NCBI RefSeq assembly: GCF_020991005.1
Contig: NZ_JAJLLW010000009.1
Coordinates: 1-64,000, forward strand
Length of the DNA stretch: 64,000 nucleotides
DNA from: Halomonas sp. CUBES01
GTDB lineage: Bacteria; Pseudomonadota; Gammaproteobacteria; Pseudomonadales; Halomonadaceae
Direction of reading: 5' to 3'
The position numbers were made by a program, and so were the translations under genes. The notes under the pieces are model-generated. The model searched no databases and had not been told where the DNA came from. It saw only the letters and a list, made by a program, of their open reading frames with translations. This document shows, in pieces, positions 314 to 41,377 of this stretch (position 1 is the first letter of the stretch; every line of letters begins with the position of its first letter).

Positions 314-453
314 TCTCGCGTCTACTGTTCTATCCCGCCGACGCGTATTGCTGTTAGCTTCCAAGCATCATTTATTTCGTCCCTTGTGCACCCGCTGCCT
401 GACGGCACCCTGGGTGATGACGCCTGTCTGTAACATGCATCCTGCCTGCGGCA

Positions 454-482
454 TTGGAGGCTTCAGCATGGTGGCGTAAACT
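454..482 (+). promoter_or_regulatory. Candidate promoter of the arsR-type gene
   Basis: TTGGAG and TAAACT are separated by 17 bp and lie about 35 bp before the GTG start. Both hexamers are imperfect matches to the sigma-70 consensus. The remaining sequence between tRNA-Asn copy 3 and this gene (314-517) shows nothing else I can name. Confidence 0.3.
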
Positions 483-517
483 AACCTCATCGATCATTTA
501 TTGGATAGGAACTCGCC

Positions 518-880
518 GTGGGAACATCCACTTCGCTGGACGCGCTGCAGGTATTCAAGTGCTTGAGCGACGAGACGCGACTGATGCTGGTGCTGCTGAT
601 TGCCCGGGAGCAATCGCTGTGCGTGTGTGAAATGACCTACGCTCTCGAGGAATCTCAACCCAAGGTGTCGCGCCATCTCGCTCAGCTGCGCCAGTGCGGG
701 CTGCTGCTGGATCAGCGCGACGGTCAATGGGTGTATTATCATTTATCACCGCAGCTACCGCCCTGGGCCCAGCGAATCATCGAGTCCGCCCAGCAGGGGT
801 GTCTGGCAGAGCTGTCGCGCCGGTCGCAGCGCTTGAGCGCCATGGGTGATCGGCCCACGCGGCGTGCCGCGCTGTGCTAG
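518..880 (+). CDS. ArsR-family winged-helix metalloregulator
   Basis: 120 residues, close to the length of E. coli-type ArsR and colinear with it: the FKCLSDETRL entry, the metal-site helix with LCVCEM (C35, C37), the recognition helix ESQPKVSRHLAQLR and the wing DGQWVYYHLSP. The third As(III)-binding cysteine of the classical CxCxxC site is Thr40 here, so binding would use two cysteines or recruit others (C15, C94). GTG start with TAGGAA seven bases upstream. No arsenic efflux or reductase gene is adjacent, so it is an orphan regulator in this window. The fold is secure; the inducer is not. Confidence 0.85.
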   Translation: MGTSTSLDALQVFKCLSDETRLMLVLLIAREQSLCVCEMTYALEESQPKVSRHLAQLRQCGLLLDQRDGQWVYYHLSPQLPPWAQRIIESAQQGCLAELSRRSQRLSAMGDRPTRRAALC

Positions 881-38000: not shown

Positions 38001-38359
38001 ACGTCACCCGGGTCGTGTTGACCTACGGGGTGGCCCACGGCTCGAACCTGGCCCTGGTGCATCGTCTGCTGCGCCAGGCCGCGGATGAAAACGCTCGGGT
38101 GCTCACCGACCCCGAGCCCCAGGTGTTCTGCATGAGTTACGGGCCCCACAGCCTCAACTTCGAGTTGCGCATCTTTGTCAACGACCTGCTGGATCGGCTG
38201 TTTGCCGCCGACGAGGTCAACTGCCGGGTGGACGCCCTGTTCCGCGAGGCGGACGTGCGCGTGGCGTTTGAGCAGATGGATGTCTGGCTGCACCGTGATG
38301 CGGGCGATGCGGTGAAAGTGGAATCCTTCAAGCCACCCGAAGCGCCGTTCAGTGGCTAG
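35027..38359 (+). CDS. Large mechanosensitive channel (MscK/MscM type, MscS family)
   Basis: 1110 residues from GTG with GAGG eight bases upstream. Signal peptide 1-28. A long Gln/Arg/Glu-rich coiled-coil periplasmic domain (about 40-490, MscS_porin type) is followed by some eight membrane segments (500-860) and the MscS pore and beta domains (about 870-1085, with LGFGLQEIFANFISG and RPIRIGD). It releases solutes on hypo-osmotic shock, important in a halophile. The architecture is that of E. coli MscK/YjeP; I do not decide between them. It shares its stop tetranucleotide with tlyA on the other strand. Confidence 0.92.
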   Translation: MVKFAFPLAMKGLVALGLLLCSVALNAATLDDEPDEAALQQRLAELGAQETLNAQQALDQQALTAALEAYERLGAIDQQLAELEKRVNQAPDALIAVERELNEAEEGDDMPSIEQLSDLPLAALESQQAEALATLQRLQSQLAEVNSQFLTAQTLPERAQQSMAVTLERMESLRRDAAEREALLGDRQLSALSDPRMIQLRLERAVAEREVALYQRQLSANGRLRDLAQQRRDLLMQQIDHHEQRLNLLQNVIDRQRRLASEQAIADAAQDNPLIAAGHPVVVQAQERNQALSLALLQASERDNTLLRDNIDAQRQLEHVRQLQRSLNEQIEAIRGSQLLSRILREQRQSLPNVLPRRDLQDEIADLRLKQFDLVRQRDQLRQAEQLARQRLDDADIEATPALITSLSRLYQSRRELVEELEEVYGRLLSAAVELQLNQQQLLSTTQTLRTTIDEQLFWVANSRPLDLNWLRQLPKHLRLEWQEGEWRAILPTRWPAPDWGMLSGAPLLAVSLVLVALRRRVKARLAHLHSQIGRLKSDTQLHTPKAVFLNALLAVPGPLALAGAGAAVASTQSTLAVTLAPALVQLALSWMVIALGRRLLVVNGVAEQHFTWSPIYNARLRGLLAWLGVALVPVIAISTLADNLQTPLAQRPVALMLLALGLLAMSICLARLILAHVPIFGVRLFRLLLGLAMAAVPVALLGMVVWGYEYTALRLVGRFVATLYLLGLWVVVEATVVRSLAVAARRLAYRRALARRRAQVQEGAEGGLEVVEEPPLDMEQINTQSLRLSKLILLIAFSGLLYLVWADLLSVLGYLDQVSLWENTDGELVDNALSISDLFSALLVVALTFIMARNLPGLLEVMVLSRLTLKQGSAYAISSLLSYTIVGTGVVSALATLGVSWDKLQWLVAALSVGLGFGLQEIFANFISGLIILFERPIRIGDTITLGNLHGTVSRIRIRATTVTDFDRKEIIIPNKTFVTDQLINWSLSDNVTRVVLTYGVAHGSNLALVHRLLRQAADENARVLTDPEPQVFCMSYGPHSLNFELRIFVNDLLDRLFAADEVNCRVDALFREADVRVAFEQMDVWLHRDAGDAVKVESFKPPEAPFSG

Positions 38360-39129
38360 GCCATGGTCTGGCCGTTGGTTTTCTGCGCATAGAGCAGAAA
38401 CTCCTGGTTGCCGTCGCCGCCGGTAATCGGGCTCACCTGCCAATGCTGAACCATCAACCCCTGCGACTGGCAGGCATCGCGCAGGCGGGCTTCCACCTGG
38501 GGATAGTTCGCCGAGTCGCGCACCACGCCGCGTTTGTCCAGCGCGCTCGGGGTCAGCTCGAACTGCGGCTTGACCAGCGATATCAGCCGCCCGTTAGCGG
38601 GCAGCAGGGCGGCCAGCTCGGGCAGGATCAGGGTCTGCGAAATGAACGATACGTCCATCACCGCCAGGTCGATGGGGTGCTCGCGGAGTGCGTCCTGGAG
38701 GGAAGGCACATCGCGCATGGCGCGGGCGTTGATGCCCTCGAGACAGGTGACGCGTGGGTCGCGACGCAGGCGGGCATCGAGCTGGCCGTGGCCGACCTCG
38801 ACGCCAATTACATGGCGCGCGCCGGCGTGCAGGGCGCAATCGCTGAAGCCCCCGGTGGACTGGCCGACATCCAGTACGTTAAGGCCATCAAGCCGCAGAT
38901 CGAGGGCGGCCAGCACCGCTTCGAGCTTGAGCCCGGCCCGGGATACATAACGCTCTTCCGGGTCCGGGGCGACCTCAAAACGGGTATCCTCGGGCCACTT
39001 TTCGCTGGGTTTGACGAGCGTCTGGACGCAGCCGGGGAGTGACACGCGGCCATGGCGAATAAGCCGTTGCGCGCGGGTGCGTGAACTCGCCAGCCCCTGG
39101 CTGACGAGCAGTTGGTCGAGTCGCCTCAT
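38356..39129 (-). CDS. tlyA: TlyA-family rRNA methyltransferase
   Basis: 257 residues from MRRLDQLLVSQGLA; the open frame extends to 39384, but its start codon here overlaps the stop of the upstream gene (ATGA). S4 RNA-binding domain (1-60) and FtsJ/RrmJ-like domain with SAM motif LDVGQSTGGFSDCAL. The family methylates 2'-O-ribose in 16S and/or 23S rRNA (mycobacterial example) and was once called haemolysin. Translationally coupled to the 679-residue protein. Confidence 0.9.
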   Translation of the reverse strand: MRRLDQLLVSQGLASSRTRAQRLIRHGRVSLPGCVQTLVKPSEKWPEDTRFEVAPDPEERYVSRAGLKLEAVLAALDLRLDGLNVLDVGQSTGGFSDCALHAGARHVIGVEVGHGQLDARLRRDPRVTCLEGINARAMRDVPSLQDALREHPIDLAVMDVSFISQTLILPELAALLPANGRLISLVKPQFELTPSALDKRGVVRDSANYPQVEARLRDACQSQGLMVQHWQVSPITGGDGNQEFLLYAQKTNGQTMA

Positions 39130-41165
39130 AGGTCGTAGGGCGGTTGATCCGGGGCTTCGCTGGCTTGCAGCTCGGCGGCGGGCAGCCGCTCGGCGCCCCA
39201 GCTTTGGCGCAGGTAGCGTTTGACGTTGCTGAGTTCGTCCTCGGTGACCGTGGCCAGTTCGCCCCTTTCCAGCGGGTCGAAGTGGTAAATGTAAAGCCGC
39301 GAGACGAACTGCGGAAACGGTAGCGAGGCTTCGCCAAAGCGTTCGCCGTGCCCCGCCGTGCTGACCTTGACGCCGTCGCCCCAATCCTGGCCGCTGTCGT
39401 TGTTGGGGTTGTAGAAGTAGACGCGCATCACGTCGTTGGGATCCAGGGACGCACGCAGGATGGTGATGGCGTGCCAGCCGATAAACCGTGCCGCGCTGTC
39501 TGTCACGGCAATACCCGCCGGCTGAGGATGAATCAGCGGCTGGTTGCCGTTGTAGTAAGGGTGATAGCAGGCGTAGAAATGACGAATGAAGTCGTCCACC
39601 TCGGTGAGCTGACCCGACGCCACGTCAACGTTGATGCGAAACCCGCGCCCTGACCACCAGCCGTGGAACTCCGGGTTGACCCAGCGGTGGGGGTCGCCCT
39701 CGCGGCCGAGGCATCGGCGGCCCATTTCGGCATAGATGCGATCCAGATGAGGCACCACGATCAGCGAGACGGGGTCGAGATCCATGGGCAGCTCGGTGGC
39801 AACGCCGGAGAGGCTTGCCATGGAGGAGATCGCCTGACCTTCAAAGTGCATGATGATCTCGTCATCACGCGCCGCCCAGGCCACCATCTGCAGCAGGTAG
39901 TCCGGGTCGTTGTAGGCCCACATCGACAGCGCGCGGGCCGACTGGCAGGTGGGGTTGTTACCCTGGCCCACGCCCAGCGGCAGGCCCAGCATGCACAGCA
40001 CGCCTTCCAGCAGACGTGCTCGGGACGATGCCGTCTCGCCGAAGGCAAGGTTAAGGCGATACTGGGACCATTCGGACAGCGGCAGGTTGAGCTGGCGCCA
40101 CATGGCAGGGGCCACCGGCGGCTGATAGAGAATGCCCCGTTCGAGCATCAGCGCCAGGCCGTAGACCGACTGGGCGGTAGCCGGGTAGACGCCGCCGCGG
40201 ATCAGCGCGTGGGCCAGCTCGCGATAGCACAGCAGGCAGTCGCGGCCGGTGGACGACAGCCCCAGCGCTTCGCTCACCAGGTGGTCGCCTTCTTCCAGCA
40301 GGTGGCGCAGCAGGACGGCATGGTACGGCGAGACCAGGCCGGTATCGTGCATGGCGCGAGCAAAGCCGGTGGCCTCGGCCTGGAGGGCAGCCTGGTCCAT
40401 GCCGTCGAGGCGTTCGCGATAGACCTCGATGCCTGGGTCTTCACGGCACGCCTGGGTGGGGCCGTAAAGCGAGCTGACCAGCCGGTCGGCGCCCTGGCCG
40501 CTGGCCCCCAGGTCGATCTCGGGGTTGACCTGGCACAGCGCGATCTGGGTGATCATCTGCTTGATGGCCTCGACCTGGATGGGTCGCTGCTTGAGAATCC
40601 GCCAGATTTCATCGATCAACTGATCGATGATGTGTTCGTAGCCAATCCGCTCGGCCAGGTATTGGAAAAGCTGGCGGGGGATAACGGCCAAACGGCCCTG
40701 TTGTTCGCGTTCAGCCTCGCTGGGCGCGGTGAACAGCAGCCAGAGGTTGATGGCCATCACCTGTGTCAGGTAATGATGGGCAAACTCCTCCGACACCAGC
40801 GGGTGGGGATAATCCCCTTTGGCCACGGCGAGAAGCCGCAGCTCGCTGAGCGCCTCGATCACCACCACGTTGGGGTCGGTGCTTTTGAGCGACAGCGTGG
40901 TCAGGGTGGGCACCAGGAACTGGGGCGTCTGCCAATCGGAGCCCAGAAAGACGCCTGCCGATTCATACGCTTGGGCCCGGTATTCGAGCGCTTGAGCGCC
41001 GCCGTTGCGCATCAGCAGTTGACGTGCCATGTCCAGCACGCGCGGCAGCTGCGCAGGTTTCAACGACGTCGGCGCCTGCAAAAGTTGCTGCACGGCATCG
41101 TCAAAGTGGGTCAGCAGCCCGTTTAGCTCAGCGTCTTGCGTCGATGGCTGTTGATCGGTTGTCAC
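39126..41165 (-). CDS. Unassigned 679-residue protein with papain-like Gln-Cys-His-Asn arrangement
   Basis: I do not recognise the family. No signal peptide or membrane segment, so it is probably cytoplasmic. Residues 1-380 look all-helical. Residues 398-600 carry GQGNNPTCQSARALSMW, then GWHAITIL and VYFYNPNNDSGQDWG. Q401 and C407 are six apart, as are the oxyanion Gln and nucleophile Cys of papain (19/25) and calpain (99/105); H565 and N586 (in NPNN...WG) would complete the triad, followed by a G-x-W-G-like end typical of that fold. A Trp/His-rich stretch (495-545) follows the region around C485. It ends in a polar tail (660-679). It precedes tlyA with ATGA overlap. Peptidase or transglutaminase-like activity is inference. 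Confidence 0.8.
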   Translation of the reverse strand: MTTDQQPSTQDAELNGLLTHFDDAVQQLLQAPTSLKPAQLPRVLDMARQLLMRNGGAQALEYRAQAYESAGVFLGSDWQTPQFLVPTLTTLSLKSTDPNVVVIEALSELRLLAVAKGDYPHPLVSEEFAHHYLTQVMAINLWLLFTAPSEAEREQQGRLAVIPRQLFQYLAERIGYEHIIDQLIDEIWRILKQRPIQVEAIKQMITQIALCQVNPEIDLGASGQGADRLVSSLYGPTQACREDPGIEVYRERLDGMDQAALQAEATGFARAMHDTGLVSPYHAVLLRHLLEEGDHLVSEALGLSSTGRDCLLCYRELAHALIRGGVYPATAQSVYGLALMLERGILYQPPVAPAMWRQLNLPLSEWSQYRLNLAFGETASSRARLLEGVLCMLGLPLGVGQGNNPTCQSARALSMWAYNDPDYLLQMVAWAARDDEIIMHFEGQAISSMASLSGVATELPMDLDPVSLIVVPHLDRIYAEMGRRCLGREGDPHRWVNPEFHGWWSGRGFRINVDVASGQLTEVDDFIRHFYACYHPYYNGNQPLIHPQPAGIAVTDSAARFIGWHAITILRASLDPNDVMRVYFYNPNNDSGQDWGDGVKVSTAGHGERFGEASLPFPQFVSRLYIYHFDPLERGELATVTEDELSNVKRYLRQSWGAERLPAAELQASEAPDQPPYDL

Positions 41166-41377
41166 GTTGATTCCTTGTCCCGGGTATGCGGGGATTATAC
41201 ATGGAAGTCGCGATCGTCCGGCTGTTTTCGTCGATCACGACGCGTAAGCACCTTCTCATCACTAACGTAGATCATTCTCCACCGAGTACCATAAGCCAGC
41301 CTGGTACCACCCTACCTGCCGTCGCTGGATTCAGCCAGGCATGCTTGTCGCGGGGCAAACGCTTGTGGATACGGATA

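Follow-up and report, generated by a model that had tools for sequence, protein, structure and literature searches.

The 679-codon gene on the minus strand of a 64,000-nucleotide stretch of Halomonas sp. CUBES01 (contig NZ_JAJLLW010000009.1, positions 1 to 64,000; the whole of this stretch is hereafter called the window) raises the question of what kind of enzyme it encodes, and with which partner that enzyme acts. A sequence-only reading had placed the open reading frame at 39126-41165, without naming a strand, and had taken its product for a papain- or calpain-like cysteine enzyme with a role linked to the ribosome or to translation, since the gene overlaps tlyA. The frame lies at exactly those coordinates, and the plus strand across 39126-41165 contains no open frame. 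We show herein that the residues of the proposed active site are invariant among relatives, and that the usual neighbor of the gene in those relatives is an ATP-grasp ligase. In our judgment there is about an even chance that the cysteine enzyme and this ligase synthesize an amide-linked compound or tag and turn it over in salt-adapted bacteria. Below, genomes (G) and loci (L) are cited by our own handles where they have to be told apart.

Four residues carry the proposed assignment: Q401 and C407 in the motif GQGNNPTC, H565 in GWHAITIL and N586 in YNPNNDSGQDWG. All of them are present as first described, and their conservation in homologues, which the sequence-only reading had wanted to see checked, is complete; the four are identical in 41/41 homologues of a first alignment, down to 39% identity, and in 126/126 distinct sequences (best match per locus), where C407 is the only invariant cysteine. 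They fall within the most conserved region of the protein, as 68 of 264 columns in residues 382-645 are at least 99% conserved vs 30 of the 381 columns before them. The gene itself is under purifying selection, with a ratio of nonsynonymous to synonymous substitution rates (dN/dS) of 0.03-0.06 for 20 of the 25 pairs of related sequences, the other five being saturated at synonymous sites and not computable. In the 679-residue protein, the cysteine and the histidine are 158 residues apart and the histidine and the asparagine 21, and by a crude average of propensities a helix begins just after C407, H565 lies within a strand, and the strand following that one ends at N586. In papain, the cysteine is located just before a helix, the histidine in a strand and the asparagine at the end of the following strand; the corresponding spacings in papain and calpain are close to 158 and 21. 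The Gln, Cys, His and Asn arrangement that serves as a criterion of clan CA peptidases is found in this family, and the layout of these residues makes a papain-like cysteine enzyme, with the corresponding fold, likely.

The papain/calpain assignment thus stands as far as the conserved layout is concerned, but no profile match to papain-like families accompanies it. The whole protein matched nothing in Pfam, NCBIfam or the PDB sequences up to E=1, and a 22-member alignment and its C-terminal domain gave only stray, unconvincing matches in Pfam and PDB, the best Pfam match of the domain being DUF4274 (3/22 members, E 0.016). Alignment of the domain by hhalign with one genuine bacterial C1 peptidase (L180) yielded an 11-residue chance match away from the active site, a single sequence being a weak test. 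The papain-like superfamily is so diverse that membership would be consistent with the missing profile match.

The usual partner of the gene is an ATP-grasp protein of about 407 residues, which lies intact, directly upstream and on the same strand in 70 of 80 named loci: 52/61 in Halomonadaceae and 18/19 elsewhere, where the last is cut by a contig end. Intact here means at least 380 aligned residues, positions were taken from tblastn, and the loci were split by family from the record names. These 80 loci are the best 80 of at least 587 stretches coding for a relative of the cysteine enzyme (among at least 597 pattern stretches in the scan of named genomes); one gene can yield two stretches. 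Ten named loci contain no intact upstream ligase. Six of them have a partial gene, which is a relic in five and cut by a contig end in one; the other four were scored as none, namely L043, L093 (very end visible by eye), L080 (with a copy 7 kb further) and L090. Further neighboring genes were obtained by codon-based gene calling, with L157 and the neighbors of G370 left out. Over 42 loci, some of them from one genome, the distances of the two proteins are correlated (Mantel r 0.81, 0/2000 permutations), the mean being 0.18 for the ligase vs 0.38 for the cysteine enzyme; 24 other ligase sequences share 74-87% identity with the reference.

With E up to 1 allowed, 25/25 aligned members of the partner match ATP-grasp_4, the best at 3.6e-6; there is also a weak match to LAL_C2. 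The partner's profile finds 4wd3 (5e-4), 3vot (1.5e-3) and the ATP-grasp protein 4dim in PDB, all within the range of 5e-4 to 1.5e-3, and its GE-x-A-x-R motif is aligned with that of 4wd3. A match to SANT_DAMP1_like in 14/25 members (best 0.0006) was taken as chance, and hhalign with another ATP-grasp protein (c157) gave no meaningful score, though both are ATP-grasp proteins. From these similarities, the partner is an ATP-grasp protein that resembles L-amino-acid ligases and probably forms an amide bond.

In the window, the ligase gene has decayed, and for that reason the partner was invisible to the sequence-only reading. Its relic, just upstream of the cysteine-enzyme gene (Table 1), matches the ligase with 32 bits; of 1000 dinucleotide shuffles, 918 produced some match, and none exceeded 21.2 bits. 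Longer C-terminal relics are found in L044-L046, L059 and L063. Elsewhere in this genome there is a second, intact ligase copy (G000:C10:428987-430201), which shares 77% identity with the reference, and the same situation, a lost or truncated neighboring ligase, a copy of 76-77% elsewhere and a retained 679-residue gene, is seen in G000, G013, G037 and G038.

The two genes also occur together across genomes. Matches to the cysteine enzyme were found in 58/61 genomes of the genus, 74/121 of the family, 13/369 of the class and 11/398 of the phylum, counts that include the own genome and broken genes, such as a 65-residue remnant in G015 and genes in pieces in G054 and G166. The same 13 of 369 class genomes carry both the cysteine enzyme and the ligase (ligase threshold 1e-20), and all 74 carriers in the family set, including G015, also match the ligase; ligase-only matches in the family are confined to G077 and G085, both weak. 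G015 has no intact ligase, and remnants of both genes lie side by side. Against this stands G069, where a frame change interrupts the sole ligase match and the cysteine-enzyme gene looks open; unless the interruption is a sequencing error, this genome would count against dependence of one gene on the other. Given the co-occurrence, one joint loss (G015) and one exception (G069), joint persistence is therefore the rule, short of proving dependence.

Among the best matches, the carriers belong to Halomonas, Vreelandella, Billgrantia and their kin, followed by Marinobacter, Halopseudomonas, Guyparkeria, Marinimicrobium, Haliea, Oceanimonas and others. One carrier, G546, belongs to another class, and 0/11 other genomes searched in its family match; the spread is therefore patchy. 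A search of 398 phylum genomes with a single sequence returned 12 matches, one of them by chance. L039 was rejected as a relative, as it is a chance match to an open reading frame that looks sugar-hydrolase-like by eye, and was kept out of the conservation counts. The phage collection searched contained no match to the cysteine enzyme and the viral contigs no relative, and the sole plasmid record with a match is a 1.8-Mb Halomonas replicon that is without annotation over the matched part; a phage, viral or plasmid origin was rejected on these grounds.

A link to salt is evident outside Halomonadaceae, where ectoine synthase (PF06339) is above the cut-off in 16/16 carriers vs 7/64 non-carriers, two further non-carriers having weak matches (Fisher p 9e-12 by genome and 1e-8 by family). 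The 16 carriers are all those found outside Halomonadaceae in the class and phylum searches, and the 64 non-carriers are every fourth class genome, a few of which are incomplete. Because ectoine marks salt life, this association shows a niche before it shows a pathway.

Most gene contexts are uninformative, because many of the other neighbors are housekeeping genes. Nonetheless, in 5 of the 119 loci searched (L115, L166, L167, L169 and L178) the pair lies next to a gene for an amidohydrolase resembling class-II histone deacetylases (HDACs), some of the 119 coming from one genome and some being cut short; L166, L167, L169 and L178 represent four different families. The two of the five that were run matched Hist_deacetyl of Pfam (L166, 3e-90; L178, 1e-92), the best PDB match of the L166 protein is HDAC6, and the remaining HDAC-like proteins are 45-48% identical to that of L166 over the matched part. 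In L166, a 5.6-kb contig, the order is cysteine enzyme, HDAC-like gene (overlapping by 4 bases), ligase and ectoine synthase, the last being the only ectoine synthase gene found in that genome. A different kind of HDAC, which we take to be of the acetylpolyamine type, neighbors extra copies of the cysteine-enzyme gene in L155 and L159; in seven other Halomonadaceae loci it is found within several kb. A further extra copy, in L175 (G655), directly follows potG- and potH-like putrescine transporter genes, so named from best NCBIfam matches that are below those models' own cut-offs. A Sir2-like gene lies near the pair in L160 (judged by eye) and L162 (same cluster), no family search having been made for it.

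The preferred reading can be put as a sequence of steps. The cysteine enzyme, probably cytoplasmic, would use Q401, C407, H565 and N586 as a papain/calpain-type site. The ligase would spend ATP to form an amide bond, probably joining small amino-acid-like substrates, and the cysteine enzyme would attack the same kind of bond through an acyl-enzyme at C407, followed by hydrolysis or transfer. Together, the pair would make and recycle an amide-linked compound (or tag) for salt-adapted bacteria; in the lineage of the window, the second ligase copy elsewhere in the genome may serve in trans in place of the decayed neighbor. A bolder version, which we hold to be possible though doubtful, is that the pair, in some lineages together with the HDAC-like amidohydrolase, forms the core of an undescribed salt-adaptation pathway of halophilic and marine Gammaproteobacteria, whose amide-linked product, made from a diamino acid or amino acids (e.g., those of the ectoine precursor pool) and recycled, would act beside ectoine as an osmolyte or regulator. 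Several observations weigh against these proposals. No link in sequence or profile to papain-like families emerged from Pfam, NCBIfam, the PDB sequences or the one C1 peptidase compared by hhalign, and either of two other histidines, H535 (invariant in all 126 sequences) or H628 (invariant in the 125 sequences covering that position), could be the catalytic one instead of H565. The listed ligase member is below the curated ATP-grasp_4 cut-off (22.8 vs 27 bits). The two genes are about 55 kb apart in G455, and extra copies of either gene occur alone. The ectoine synthase comparison covers genomes outside Halomonadaceae, and the enzyme, which marks life in salt, need not imply a shared pathway; 114/119 loci are without an adjoining class-II HDAC.

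The same pairing and the same link to ectoine synthase would also suit a cysteine enzyme that runs in the direction of synthesis, taking an activated or dipeptide intermediate produced by the ligase and transferring the acyl group, in a transglutaminase-like manner or as a reversed amidase, so that the pair would constitute the biosynthesis of a new amide solute. HDAC-like and acetylpolyamine-type amidohydrolases near some loci, and the presence of up to three cysteine-enzyme copies with one or two ligase copies (e.g., in G097 and G142), are consistent with this, but none of the 22 members, as whole proteins or as domains, matches Transglut_core, and we consider it rather unlikely. The unusual conservation of the ligase, together with the HDAC6-like gene and, in L160 and L162, the Sir2-like gene nearby, could instead argue for a cycle of protein modification, in which the ligase would decorate protein side chains or termini with an amino acid or peptide that the cysteine enzyme, at times alongside an HDAC-like lysine deacylase, would take off again; the ligase, however, resembles amino-acid ligases acting on small molecules, and no candidate substrate protein is known, none having been searched for. 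We consider such a cycle unlikely.

Two alternatives concern the cysteine enzyme rather than the pair. C407 could belong to another chemistry or fold, the papain layout being a coincidence of invariant residues, as might be expected from the undetectable similarity to clan CA families and from the many other residues that likewise never vary (88 of the 679 positions in the 41-sequence alignment, not counting the start). The order, spacing and local context of the four residues nevertheless resemble those of papain and calpain, and the propensities fit, such that a coincidence appears unlikely. The translation-linked peptidase coupled to tlyA, which the sequence-only reading favored, drew on an ATGA overlap that does exist in the window (it is the stop of the 679-residue gene overlapping the start of tlyA, whose product matches FtsJ and S4), and tlyA is located within 400 bp downstream on the same strand in 35/61 Halomonadaceae loci. 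Surveying tlyA neighborhoods, as had been suggested, revealed this arrangement in 0/19 other loci, 18 of which have an intact ligase; in one of the 19, L118, tlyA is next door but convergent. The link to tlyA is thus local to Halomonadaceae, and a general role tied to TlyA is not supported; a TlyA-coupled translation factor was rejected, there being no association beyond this family (0/19 loci), and we regard the idea as very improbable.

Table 1. Positions of the features discussed (nucleotides of the window unless residues are given) and the basis of each assignment
Feature	Position	Strand	Basis or remark
679-residue cysteine-enzyme gene	39126..41165	minus	Open reading frame list and translation; GTG start at 41165
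C-terminal catalytic-type domain of the 679-residue protein	residues ~382-645		Conserved part; N-terminal ~380 residues less conserved
Codons from Q401 to C407	39945..39965	minus	Proposed oxyanion Gln and nucleophile Cys; invariant 126/126
Codon of H565	39471..39473	minus	Proposed catalytic His; invariant 126/126
Codon of N586	39408..39410	minus	Proposed third catalytic residue; invariant 126/126
Relic of upstream ATP-grasp ligase	41195..41302	minus	Last 35 codons and stop, ending DFHV, 29 bp before GTG start; tblastn E=6e-5
AAGGAA, likely ribosome binding site of 679-residue gene	41171..41176	minus	Inferred from reading the sequence
tlyA (S4 and FtsJ-like methyltransferase)	38356..39129	minus	4-base overlap with 679-residue gene; lineage-specific neighbor

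The end of the relic has a further feature. A TATAAT with a preceding TG at 41194-41199 (minus strand) coincides exactly with the relic's stop codon, and TGTATAAT likewise occurs at the corresponding spot in L043-L046, L059, L063 and L093. From its sequence, the end of the relic may be the surviving promoter of the 679-residue gene; a scan that also demanded a -35 box reported none.

Some additional copies and their neighbors were also recorded. The intact second ligase copy of the window's own genome, outside the window (L124:9985-11292), is a few kb from genes resembling those of glycine-betaine/dimethylglycine catabolism (by eye, a GbdR-like regulator, a dipeptidase and a DgcA-like gene), and the ligase copy in L143 has three of these gene clusters beside it. 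Near the pair at L148:12419-15851 lie a gene for another ATP-grasp protein and then one for an S15-like peptidase (by eye), and in L149 a lone ligase copy has the same ATP-grasp and S15-like genes nearby, along with a cyanophycin synthetase gene (TIGR02068). Three genomes of one genus (G690, G593 and G655; L139-L141) possess the cysteine-enzyme gene in a third copy. Beside a third-copy gene, L171:12319-14840 encodes proteins of 494 and 351 residues with no Pfam match at 1e-5, which by eye are carboxylate-amine ligase-like and succinylglutamate-desuccinylase-like.

The pair is a widespread, conserved and co-inherited unit of two genes, one encoding a cysteine enzyme with no Pfam or NCBIfam match and the other a ligase with only a weak ATP-grasp match, and it points to a new pathway of amide making and breaking. 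Its tie to ectoine-making bacteria offers a concrete entry to what is possibly a missing piece of salt adaptation. The locus also illustrates how a decayed neighbor can mislead, as the operon partner was found in relatives, and the window keeps only 35 of its codons. Among the papers listed by our literature searches, we found no description of the pair, though Iyer et al. 2009 may have mentioned it; the passages searched in PMC10318531, PMC8939145 and PMC9006882 are silent on it, and none of the terms looked for occurs in PMC10960403.

Compared with papain and calpain of clan CA, the 679-residue protein has the same Gln and Cys six residues apart, a later His and then an Asn shortly before W-G, but differs in having no detectable sequence similarity, an N-terminal part of about 380 residues and an ATP-grasp partner. 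The partner shares with the L-amino-acid ligases (4wd3, and BL00235, 3vot) the ATP-grasp core, the GE-x-A-x-R motif and a weak LAL_C2 match, but it is distant from them (E 5e-4 to 1.5e-3) and frequently paired with a cysteine enzyme. In E. coli Gss (glutathionylspermidine synthetase/amidase), an ATP-dependent amide ligase is joined by an amidase that breaks an amide of this kind; both Gss and the trypanothione enzyme are fusions within one protein, built from other domain families. Trypanothione synthetase-amidase, according to a published abstract, likewise couples an ATP-dependent amide ligase to an amidase. The pair described here would resemble both by function, as an amide ligase accompanied by an amide-cleaving enzyme, but it consists of separate genes and has no Pfam match to the CHAP amidase or GSP synthetase. 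Finally, with the neighborhoods of Iyer et al. 2009, in which an ATP-grasp amidoligase reportedly lies next to papain-like or transglutaminase-like peptidases, the pair shares the general theme of a ligase beside a peptidase.

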